Shown in pieces: positions 28,417-49,100 of a stretch of DNA of 64,000 nt. The position numbers were made by a program, and so were the translations under genes. Each line of letters starts with the position of its first letter. Within the stretch, counting starts at the first letter, position 1. Origin of the DNA: an uncultured bacterium (GTDB taxonomy: Bacteria; Cyanobacteriota; Vampirovibrionia; Gastranaerophilales; Gastranaerophilaceae); contig CASERN010000006.1 in NCBI GenBank assembly GCA_949290355.1, forward strand, positions 1-64,000, given 5' to 3'. The notes under the pieces are model-generated. The model saw nothing but the letters and a program-made list of their open reading frames with translations, was not told where the DNA came from and ran no database searches.

Positions 28417-29217
28417 CTACCAAGGATAGTCATCTTTAATTTGCCAACCGTCATTCATAATGAGTAAAGCACAGCTATTTGAATAGCCATTTGCTCTTTC
28501 TCCGCAGAATTTAATCATTTTATCTCGATCGCCATATATGTAATTGTCATGAGGATTTTCATCGTCATCACTCGATTTCGCAAATACATAACCTGACGGA
28601 TAAAAATATCCCATTTGTTTTGTATTTGTATTCAAGTTATAATCTAGCATAAAATAAAACCAGTCTTTCCCGGCTTTATTAGGTCCTTTATTCCCATTTA
28701 AGTCATAAAGTACATGAATTTGAGCATTATTATTTAAAACAAGAGTGCTTCCATCTGCAAGAACGATTGCGGGATAACTTGCGGGGAATTGGTCAATTGG
28801 ATTTTTATCGTATACTTGTGCCCCGTTAAGATAAGGAATAAGTGCTGTTTTTAACCATTCTACCATTGCTGCCTGATCATATCTTTTATCAGTTGGAGGT
28901 TGTGTCCATGTATCATTTGCTATAGACATTCTGACAGCTTGATTCATTACTGTATAGGTCTTTTTTAAACGTACAACGATTTGTTCTTTTTGATATTTTG
29001 TAATGAGTACTGGAATAGTCATTGCAGCAACAACGCCTATTATCCCTAAAGTAATTAAAACTTCCGCTAAAGTAAAAGCTCTTTTTCTTCCATAATAGTG
29101 ATTCATAACATAACTATTATAACCTATATTTTTGTATATATCAAGCTCTTTTCTTGAAACGCAGTTATAGTTTAATTTTTCGGGGGGGGCAATCCTGAAA
29201 GCTTCTTGTGTGTTCAT
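28417..29217 (-). CDS. Prepilin-type protein with poly-C leader (in frame)
   Basis: A 266-residue protein with a type IV pilin/pseudopilin N-methylation signature, GRKRAFTLAEVLITLGIIGVV split here as RKRAF/TLAEV..., followed by a 20-residue hydrophobic helix. The C-terminal domain is a G/H-type pseudopilin-like body (DGSTLVLNNNAQI, GPNKAGKDWFYFML) ending DDYPW. It begins at the ATG 7 nt after GAGGAG, giving an unusually long ~50-residue pre-leader. That leader contains eight C in a row (A-P-P). A second ATG just before NHYYGRKRAF would give a normal 10-residue leader but has no ribosome binding site. A homologue lies at 45289-46151. Confidence 0.85.
   Translation of the reverse strand: MNTQEAFRIAPPEKLNYNCVSRKELDIYKNIGYNSYVMNHYYGRKRAFTLAEVLITLGIIGVVAAMTIPVLITKYQKEQIVVRLKKTYTVMNQAVRMSIANDTWTQPPTDKRYDQAAMVEWLKTALIPYLNGAQVYDKNPIDQFPASYPAIVLADGSTLVLNNNAQIHVLYDLNGNKGPNKAGKDWFYFMLDYNLNTNTKQMGYFYPSGYVFAKSSDDDENPHDNYIYGDRDKMIKFCGERANGYSNSCALLIMNDGWQIKDDYPW
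29182..29189. repeat. Poly-C (8) tract in prepilin leader
   Basis: Eight consecutive G on the plus strand (C in the gene), 28-35 nt into the coding sequence. Eight keeps the frame open into the pilin domain. The homologous gene has ten at the same place. Confidence 0.7.
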
Positions 29218-45288: not shown

Positions 45289-46151
45289 TTAAAATCTGAT
45301 AGGATAATCATTTGGGACTTCCCAATTATTATATTGTATAAGCCCTCCGCAATAGAGCCCTGCGTATATTCCTGTAACATTTTTGCTGCAGCCGTATGGA
45401 GCAGTTTTTAGTGCATTAATATCAGTTATTGTTCCGTCTGCTCCGTTTGTATATATTTTAGGTTTCTCTCCGCCTATCGGTTTGATTACGAGTCCAAAAA
45501 CATCAGCGCCAAGCATATTTTTTCCTTTTTGTGGTCCATTTATATCAACCCACATTTGAAGATGCATTCCTGTAGTATTTCCATTTGTTGCACCTGAATT
45601 CCCGCCTGCCCACATGTATATTGAACTGCCATTATTTAGAATTATTGATATTCTTGATGCATTTTGCCCTTGATTCTTAAGATATCCTTTTTCTCCGCTT
45701 ATAGAACTTGTAGATGTCCAGCATTCATCAGCTGTGGGGACACATTTTTTTATTATTTTTAATTCTTGAGAAAAATTGTTAAAAATTTGTTCTGTACATT
45801 CTGGTTGATCTGTATCACAAACATTCCAATTTTCTGCACTTCCATTTTTTGCTTCCCCCATTCTTATAGCATTTGAGAGAATACTTATTGTTGCTTTGAA
45901 TTGGTTTATTGCTTGGTGCTTTCGATAATTCGAGATCAACGTAGGAATAGTCATCGCCGCAACAACTCCGATAATTCCTAAAGTAATTAAAACTTCCGCT
46001 AAAGTAAAAGCTCTTTTTCTTCCACAATAGTGATTAATAACATCACTATTATAACTTATATTTTTGTATTTATCAAGTTCTTTTCTTGAAATACAGTCAT
46101 AGTTTAACTTTTCGGGGGGGGGGCAATCCTGAAAGCTTCTTGTGTATTCAT
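45289..46151 (-). pseudogene. Prepilin-type gene, out of frame at a poly-C tract (phase-variable or broken)
   Basis: The ATG at 46151 (7 nt after AAGGAG) starts MNTQEAFRIA, as in the gene at 28417-29217, but ten C instead of eight shift the frame, giving a stop after 15 codons (...CCG AAA AGT TAA). Beyond the tract the other frame is open all the way: leader, RKRAFTLAEVLITLGIIGV, then a 220-residue pseudopilin-like body ending NDYPIRF. A loss of two C or gain of one would restore it. The internal ATG of the other copy is ATT here, so re-initiation is less likely. It follows the GH13 gene by 47 bp and may be cotranscribed. Confidence 0.8.
46114..46123. repeat. Poly-C (10) tract in second prepilin leader
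   Basis: Ten consecutive G on the plus strand (C in the gene). The matching tract in the homologous leader at 29182 is eight long. It lies within the first 12 codons, where length changes switch translation on or off. Confidence 0.75.
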
Positions 46152-46198
46152 TTCCAAACTCCTTTTTTCTTAACCATTATTATTATTTACGAATATTG

Positions 46199-49100
46199 CT
46201 ATTTTGTCAATATTGCAAGTTTTTCTCCAATTTTATCAGGTGTTTTATTAATATTTTGGTAAGGATTTGTAACTATGTTGTATTTAGGATTATACATAGT
46301 TCTTCTACCTGTAAAGCTTGGTTCATGGTATAGAATTAATGTAGAGTCTTTAAATTTAATAGGAGTTCCGTCCGGTCCTGTAATTTGGTTCTTATCATTT
46401 ACATAGTATGTATTATTATCATTAACATCAGCATTTTTGAATTTCATTCCGCTTTTTAAGCCGCCTCTTAATCCGACAGCACCATCTCTGCCTTCATTAA
46501 GGTCTATAAAAGGTAGTGTTAACTCTGCACAATCATAATAGCTGTCATATTTGTGGTTCAGTCCTGCAGTATTAAATACAGAAACAGTTATAGCTCCGTC
46601 AGTGCTTTGCCTTAATAATGCTGATACTTGAGTATCTCCTTCTTCATTTTTGATAAAAGTTTCTTTGCATTTGTTTAATTCATCTGAATATATTGCTTTT
46701 TTATAGTGCGCATTTTGTTCTTTTAATGCAAATGGCGCTCCATCATTAAGAGGGTGTAATTCTTTTCTTGCTCTTAGATGGAATTGATAATCCATATCAT
46801 CTTTAAATCTTTTTACAAAAGGTTTGAAATCTGGATCATTTTCATCTGCCCATTCTTCATGAATTATATTTCGGTTTTGAAGATAAATATTTTTAGTTGT
46901 TGTTTCAAATCCAGTTGAACCGTATTCATCACCTGCGTACAATGTAGGGTATCCTACCAGTGCTGTCAAGAATTTTGTTTGCCCGAGCAGTCTAGACATT
47001 GCAGGATCAATAATTCTTTGGAAAGTTTCATTTTTTAAATTTTTCTTATCTTCTTTGCTGAGGCGTTTATCCGGATTTGGTTCTAGATAATCCATTTCAT
47101 CTAATACAAGATCCAAAGCAATGTTATAATCTTTTGACCCAAAGCCATCTGCTTCAAATGTTCTTCCTTCAAATTTTCCGTTAGAAATATTTTTTAATGC
47201 AAGAAGCATTTTCCCATATATGTAGTCCTTTTTGGCTTGATCAAAGCCTAATCTTTGTATAGCTTTTCCCATTCCGCTTGATATTGATTCACATTTTGCA
47301 ATTGCAAGATTACTTTTTCTGTCAAAGTTATATCTGTCTATTTCTTGTTGAGATACATAATCGCTAAAACTTTTGCCGTTTAATATTCTGTATGCTCTTT
47401 CTCTATATGGATTTCCTTTTTCTATAAGGTCAGTATATACCAAATCCATATCCATTGCATATCCGTCTAATGCACGGCTCTTATCGTGGTTGCCTGCAAA
47501 AGTATATGATTGAATAATTGATTCAAGAGGTCCTGAATTTAGGAAGTTAGCATCTCCTACTAATTGATCTAGTACTGTTTTGCCATGGTCTAGACCTTTA
47601 TCCGGACTGTTATAATTGTCAAATTCAAATATTTTACCAAATATTTTTGTTATATCTGAAGATAAATAGCTGTAATTGGCTGTTGTTGTGAAACCAGCTT
47701 CATTTAAGAGTTTTTTTACAGCTTCTACAGGGTTTTCAAATCTTGTCTCAGATATATAGCCTTCACCATCTTTATAGATATCATATTCATTTGTAACTTC
47801 TGCAGCAATATATGCATCAGGGTGATATTCTTTAATTCCCTTTGTAAATTTAGACCAAAAATCTATTAAAGAGTTCCAAGTATATTCAAAGTCTGTTTTT
47901 TGATTTCTTACAGATTCAATATCTGCAATATCTTTTGTTGCATCAATTCTCCAATCAAGTCCAGCTTCACTTCTGTTGACTATCATTTCAGCAAGTTTAA
48001 AACTGTTTAAACTTGTCCCTTTGATAGATCTTAAAAGGGCAGTTGCTAATTTTTCTTTGTCAGATTTATTTATTTTTTTGATACCTGATCTTATTTTTTT
48101 TACAAGACGTCTAGCTTCATCTTCAGGAGAATGTTCTATAATTCCCATTTTAAGTAATGAGGTTTTTTCTAACTTTTTGTAATCGTATGTAATTTCTCCT
48201 GTTTCTTTATCAAAAGAAAAATCAGCTTTAGGATCAATAGATTTAATAATTGCATATCTTGCAATTTCTGCACTTAATAATGGTATTATGTATTTCCCAA
48301 AAGGAGTAGAATTACCATATTCATCTTGAAGTTTTTTATCATTTGGTAATTTAGCTTCAATTCCGTAGAAAATTTCTCTTGCAAAGTGAAGCATTTCTTT
48401 ATCGTACATTTTGTCGGATAATTCATATACATTTTTAAATGTATCATCAACATGAGGATTACCCGCTCTATAGAGGTCAAATCTTGATACCCCTATTTGA
48501 TCCTCAGCAATAGCTCTTTTGCTTATATATGGAGAAGCAAGAACCCTAGAGATATCATCTCCTACCTCAACTGATTCAAGAGGGACATCCATTAAACTTT
48601 TTAGGATTAGATTTATATATGATAATCTTGTAGTTGCGCCTTTCAAAGGATACCTGCCGGAGTATACATTATTCACTATTTCTTGATTAACATCAAGATC
48701 CTTAGGTAATACTTTTTTGCTAGAAAGTTCATGAATTTTCTTATAAACTTCTTCCGGAGTCATATTATCAATATTCTTTAAATTTTGTGCAACATATAAA
48801 TTTAAAATATCATTAGTTTTTTTAGTCCAATATTTAGCGGAAGAAATTGCATAATCTTGAACTTGCATATTATTTTTAACAACCAAGTCCTTTAATTTTT
48901 CTCTTTCTTCTGGATTTACTATATTTTTCAAATTTTGAGTATCATTATTCGAAAATATAAAATTAAGTTTCCCGATATCAGGGTTTGCATCCCAAGTTTC
49001 AAAACCACTTTCGTGTTTACCGTCAAGCCCAAAATATTGAAATTCTGTAACAGCTTTAGTTCCGAGTCCTGATTTTAGAGGAATGATTTCATCTTTATTC

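Follow-up and report, generated by a model that had tools for sequence, protein, structure and literature searches.

Structure of the window gene and its tract

The window gene lies on the minus strand of the window, which is the whole stretch of 64,000 nucleotides that was analysed. It is preceded by a putative promoter-like site, TTGACA-17-AATAAT (46182-46210, minus strand; 11 of 12 matches in a consensus scan), and by a Shine-Dalgarno (SD) sequence, AGGAG (46163-46159), which is separated by seven nucleotides from an ATG at 46151-46149. Nine codons and one base lie between this ATG and a run of ten C (46123-46114 on the minus strand, G10 on the plus strand), which is flanked by G on both sides of the C strand. 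Reading from the ATG through the run gives a product of 15 amino acids, MNTQEAFRIAPPPKS, followed by a stop (46104-46151, minus strand). The prepilin frame is one base out of step with this first frame. Beyond the tract it runs without interruption for 274 codons, from 46113 to a stop at 45291-45289, and it contains the prepilin signal FTLAEVLITLGIIGVV 35 codons past the tract. A tract of eight or eleven C would place the ATG in frame with the prepilin, but a tract of ten does not.

The prepilin frame scores 25.3 bits with PF07963 (N_methyl; cut-off 21.2) and 22.3 bits with TIGR02532 (cut-off 16.3), and the Pfam/NCBIfam stretch 32-55 of the frame corresponds to a cleavage and methylation segment, RKRA-FTLAEVLITLGIIGVVAAMTIP, at 45938-46020 (minus strand, ends approximate). 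A paralogous gene of 266 amino acids at 28417-29217 on the minus strand also exceeds both cut-offs, so that the N-terminal motif of type IV prepilins and pseudopilins is present in both genes; the paralogue is in frame through a tract of eight C (29182-29189, minus strand), which is an ON length. C8 occurs at four overlapping places in the window compared to an expected 0.20, and a count of four was reached in one of 100 shuffles. The initial annotation had described an out-of-frame prepilin behind a ten-C tract near the gene start, a homologue with eight C in frame, and a surface-type protein, and on all of these points it is borne out. Its figure of 220 stop-free residues is correct in that the frame is open, but the true extent is 274 codons after the tract, and a count of 221 amino acids is obtained from a downstream ATG.

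Tracts in the genome of the window

The genome to which the window belongs (G000, Gastranaerophilales; 1,847,678 bases in 14 contigs) was searched for C or G runs of at least eight bases, and all 39 runs found were read on both strands. Prepilin leaders contain 38 of them, two of which (at the end of contig C2 and the start of C4) abut contig ends and could be the two parts of a single split gene; the sole run outside prepilins, of nine C, is located close to where an unrelated frame ends (C14:35831). Length ten accounts for 29 of the 39 runs, with four of nine, four of eleven and two of eight. The leaders are of two types, with C on the coding strand, as in the window gene, or, more commonly, G; the G-type elements were first viewed as C runs and taken for a non-coding repeat, an interpretation that was dropped once the other strand had been read. 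C8, C9, C10 and C11 all occur in paralogues whose leaders closely resemble one another, and the 36 genes that could be scored comprise 7 that are open, 28 that are one base short and 1 in the third frame. Contigs C2, C4, C9, C11 and C13 end at or near prepilin leaders, so the repeats there probably break the assembly.

Tracts across the genus

Eighty of 516 relatives were kept; Candidatus Gastranaerophilales and Melainabacteria are frequent names among them. All genus counts refer to the 33 genomes of the window's genus. These contain 2081 C or G runs of at least eight bases (from 0 to 179 per genome), including 1621 of length ten, 148 of nine and 150 of eleven, and there are 86 runs of seven. 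While paralogues range from 8 to 11 and one exceptional genome, G026, from 10 to 16, the length is exactly ten in 1609 of the 1994 runs outside G026 (about 80%), and in 94% of the runs of G011 and of G015. When 30 loci were sampled per length, prepilin leaders were found at 18 of those of length eleven, 14 of length nine and 3 of length seven, and the sampled prepilin loci had the geometry that is open at 8 or 11 in 10 of the 17 scored at length 11 and 8 of the 11 scored at length 9.

In G004, which has four runs, the prepilin motif was seen at 19 of 20 fetched prepilin places, and none of these 19 has a C or G run of at least five in the 300 bases before the motif. Many of these prepilins start plainly, as in MKKG-FTLAEV, which indicates that the gate has been added to genes of the ordinary kind.

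Several other features of the relatives were observed in passing. Prepilin leaders of G004 (L341, L346, L348) and G015 (L258, L301, L318, L330) include sequences that resemble dispersed repeats but are translated as part of the frame, examples being HSEGAYPKESSQLL...RQKSRNDR and ELDSASQ...QVQNDV. A single leader of G001 contains two C runs, of nine and ten, that are 26 bases apart (C70:15736 and 15762). A C10 in G013 (C3:52087) lies outside the prepilins, in frame (LKIAPPPKMQ) within a gene for an acyltransferase-like membrane protein, and the runs of contigs C1 to C3 of this genome are mostly one-stranded over long stretches, as though the genes were oriented along with replication. A search of viral contigs for other strains of the window locus gave no matches.

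Frame geometry of the leaders

The leaders of the family share a layout of SD-ATG, 6 to 17 codons (more in some), the run and the prepilin. In total 177 tracts were read (39 in G000, 49 of 51 in G013, 78 in G015 and 11 from part of G001), and 164 of these lead into a prepilin frame. A start with an SD sequence was identified within 60 bases for 141 leaders and further up for 17 more, which gives 158 scored leaders and leaves 6 unscored. With start codons picked by SD score and the last run before each motif considered alone, so that single phases may be wrong, 138 of the 158 are one base short, 12 are open and 8 are in the third frame. Expressed as the lengths at which a leader would be open, 150 belong to the class 8 or 11, six to the class 10 and two to the class 9 or 12; this conserved frame offset at a slippery run is broken in G026. 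G015 has no open gene among its 73 scored, 69 of which fall one base short; in G013, 5 of 44 are open. As in contingency loci, the length of a repeat tract decides the reading frame.

The start of the tract falls in all three codon positions and the downstream part compensates, such that the one-base-short geometry is kept in 133 of 141 leaders, compared to 60 expected if the start offset and the downstream frame were independent and to a maximum of 79 in 10,000 shuffles, a test in which kinship was left in (137 of the 141 leaders form one loose cluster by any shared 11-mer). In the frame that is read at length ten, a stop occurs within three codons in 79% of leaders (94% of G-type and 36% of C-type), as against 26% of comparable out-of-frame stretches and 13% in the third frame. 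The early stops are thus specific to the frame read at ten, and ten is the reference length to which the leader is fitted.

Selection on the shut genes and the start of translation

Genes that are shut at their tracts have intact bodies, as is expected of the OFF state of a contingency locus. In paralogue pairs of which both members are shut, the median dN/dS is 0.25 and no value exceeds 1 (dS was usable in 20 of 24 pairs), with values of 0.18 to 0.34 in the pairs of G015, and the frames are full-length. In 132 of 133 genes no stop interrupts the prepilin frame on the way from tract to motif, whereas just 6 of the 266 alternative frames are open over that stretch. Upstream of the tract the prepilin frame is open for a median of five codons, and no ATG with an SD sequence was found in this frame before the tract in any of 121 phase-2 genes, so most genes must be translated from the upstream ATG through the tract.

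Of 219 tract leaders, a count that pools fetched loci of all sources, 67 have the sequence TATAAT between the tract and the motif of the prepilin, nearly always in frame as Tyr-Asn codons, and in 35 of these it is directly preceded by TG. TATAAT accounts for 70 of 81 Tyr-Asn pairs between tract and motif versus 187 of 309 further downstream, and it is possible that this box acts as an internal promoter. The window gene has a putative site of this kind, TTGATA-17-TATAAT, at 46048-46076 (minus strand; 11 of 12 matches in a consensus scan).

The exceptional genome G026

G026 contains 87 C or G runs, just 12 of which have length ten. Among the 54 that were read, 22 are prepilin leaders, with lengths from 10 to 16; four of these leaders are open, 14 are in the third frame, three are one base short and one is unscored, and the 21 scored leaders are divided into 11 that would be open at 9 or 12, nine at 8 or 11 and one at 10. 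Such a mixture of lengths and frames is the outcome expected of free slippage in this genus. The remaining runs have lengths of 8 to 16, and some of them are within or next to genes that by eye resemble those of glycosyltransferases, an epimerase, a deacetylase and a methyltransferase. Dense runs of 8 to 15 occur in glycosyltransferase-like and other sugar genes at C4:51890-79939 (L453-L463) and at L488, several of these genes being broken at the run, and this cluster is likely to be a classical contingency cluster for surface glycans.

Explanations of the conserved offset

The reading that best accounts for the data, to which we assign a probability of about one half, is that the prepilin tracts are slippage gates at the DNA level which are OFF by default and are used across the whole repertoire. 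At length ten, a ribosome starting at the ATG would be one base out of frame and would usually stop within a few codons; at length 11 or 8 it would enter the prepilin. Replication slippage by +1 (or -2) would switch single genes on in some cells, with ten as the resting, OFF length, so that each cell would display a small and changing subset of the repertoire and would probably make few of the dozens of pilins that it carries. The anatomy, the frame arithmetic, the conservation, the absence of decay and the size of the repertoire were observed in this analysis; the model further presumes a useful rate of slippage, DNA as the molecule that slips, products that become pili, and a benefit. It is favoured by the precedent of Bifidobacterium breve (see below), by the pattern of G026 and by the near-equal numbers of runs of nine and eleven in the genus (148 and 150 of 2081), which slippage by one base in either direction from ten predicts. 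The confinement of nearly all long runs of the window's genome to prepilin leaders, the tract lengths of 8 to 11 among similar paralogues, the ON alleles of G000 and G013, the purifying selection on shut genes and the early stop specific to the frame read at ten also speak for it. It is opposed by the near fixation of length ten in many species and by the lack of a single ON gene among the 73 scored in G015. In addition, a gate that is OFF at ten should tolerate opening at nine as readily as at eleven, yet the counts are 2 and 150 of 158, and both are in use only in G026; simple contingency with equal use of the two OFF frames is accordingly disfavoured outside that genome.

The same offset may instead reflect programmed recoding, a tentative reading in which C10 or G10 would cause slippage of RNA polymerase (one nucleotide being added in some transcripts) or a ribosomal -1 shift, and every cell would make a little of each prepilin. 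The RNA-DNA hybrid is about ten bases long, close to the length of the run. In line with an added nucleotide, insertions by the Escherichia coli RNA polymerase at A/T runs outnumbered deletions by three to one (PMC6260861). Recoding better explains why the offset is nearly always one base rather than two, why open genes are lacking in G015 even though its paralogue pairs are under purifying selection, and why the length changes so rarely; the offset that is maintained while the tract starts in all three codon positions also argues for it. In its genus-wide form, which is likewise tentative, most of some 1,600 ten-base runs in the 33 genomes would mark prepilins that are purposely encoded with a one-base offset and decoded by such slippage or shifting, and a change of the DNA tract to 11 or 8 would provide a rarer, stronger ON state. 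Against recoding, G026 breaks the rule, lengths 9 and 11 occur, and no hairpin or other RNA stimulator, a common though not universal companion of -1 frameshifting, was detected just after the tract (mean z from -0.41 to -0.05). Slippage of bacterial RNA polymerase is reported at A/T runs, and none was found for G/C runs in the accessible text of three papers (PMC1088944, PMC6260861, PMC5009743). It is unlikely that the tract belongs to an upstream reading frame or leader and that the prepilin is produced from its own start behind it, by an internal promoter or by reinitiation. The TATAAT boxes fit such an arrangement, as does the in-frame start with an SD sequence that is possible behind the tract in 22 of the 121 phase-2 genes (for example GGAG-AATTT-ATG before MKKIFG-FTLAEV in G-type leaders of G000), but the window gene has no internal ATG, GTG or TTG for this purpose, many leaders have just eight codons and no start between tract and motif, and the open frame between them would be needless.

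Error in sequencing or assembly, with a true eleven read as ten, is very improbable. Homopolymers are error-prone and the lengths were taken from consensus sequences, but calls within the genus span 7 to 16, those of 11 to 16 in particular making error unlikely, assemblies that apparently come from different programs and projects agree, and so do the C and G orientations. Gene decay, in which the frameshift would be a fixed loss of function, is least credible of all: it would fit a relic C-type leader of G000 (C7:34553-34688), in which the run is interrupted and a stop lies in frame directly ahead of the prepilin signal, but for the family decay is refuted by the purifying selection on the shut frames, which are full-length and share the same break in many species.

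The DNA-level gate and recoding, which can act together, have in common that a run of ten which keeps the prepilin one base short has evolved as the default state, and it is the combination of fixed length, one-base-short offset and near absence of leaders open at 9 or 12 that gives the OFF state this appearance. The claim that the window gene is switched off is correct in that the gene is out of frame at C10, but this looks like the evolved default of a whole family and not the chance state of one gene, and it may be bypassed by RNA polymerase or the ribosome. Slipped-strand contingency, as originally suggested, finds partial support: it is consistent with a prepilin gated by a C run, an open C8 paralogue, the lack of decay and the tracts of 10 to 16 in G026; it is less consistent with a length that is nearly fixed at ten and an offset that elsewhere is almost always one base short.

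Implications and comparison with known systems

Nearly every long C or G run in this genus of gut bacteria, which are relatives of the cyanobacteria, is at the start of a pilus-protein gene that it leaves one base out of frame, and the window gene is one case of this larger pattern. If it is the DNA that slips, the repertoire would to our knowledge be among the largest single-family phase-variable repertoires, and it would be found in a gut lineage that is uncultured and whose resting state is OFF by design. One review of phase variation mentions, by way of example, organisms in which 12 or 20 genes are phase-variable (PMC11868660). If it is the RNA polymerase or the ribosome that slips, the genes would form a large family recoded at C/G runs; no precedent for this was found in the accessible portions of the literature examined. 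Under either model gene callers truncate or miss such genes, so the pilin repertoires of Gastranaerophilales are undercounted. Type IV pilus genes have been reported in a termite-gut member (PMC5877343). No paper linking Gastranaerophilales with phase variation was found in the literature searched, which mostly leaves out subscription journals; searches there for Gastranaerophilales pili and Melainabacteria homopolymers gave no title on prepilin tracts, nor was there one among the matches listed for type IV pili or phase-variable genes of Melainabacteria. The word pilin is absent from the main text of the GeneTack survey (PMC3711429).

Partial parallels are found in several bacteria. In Neisseria, pilC and other pilus genes are phase-variable by poly-G tracts; the G run near the signal peptide region is a shared feature, but one or two loci with variable lengths are involved there. 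Campylobacter jejuni resembles the present case in having many C/G runs in one genome, but its phase-variable tracts fall in mixed gene classes, whereas those of Gastranaerophilales involve one gene family and one frame geometry. Strain NCTC11168 has 29 polyG/polyC phase-variable loci (PMC4965091). Programmed transcriptional slippage, as in Thermus dnaX (A9) and IS elements (PMC1088944), likewise combines a homopolymer with a conserved frame break, but at A/T and not C/G runs, and slippage of this kind is here only a candidate. In B. breve, a gut commensal, pilus genes have G10/G11 runs between a signal-bearing ORF and the main ORF, which are out of frame in the reference; replication slippage turns the gene on, and ON lengths are enriched in the mouse gut (PMC9187656). 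The system in B. breve differs in that it comprises two loci for sortase pili, while here the genome of the window has 38 runs and a relative as many as 179; these belong to prepilin-like genes, are made of either C or G and are nearly fixed at a length of ten.
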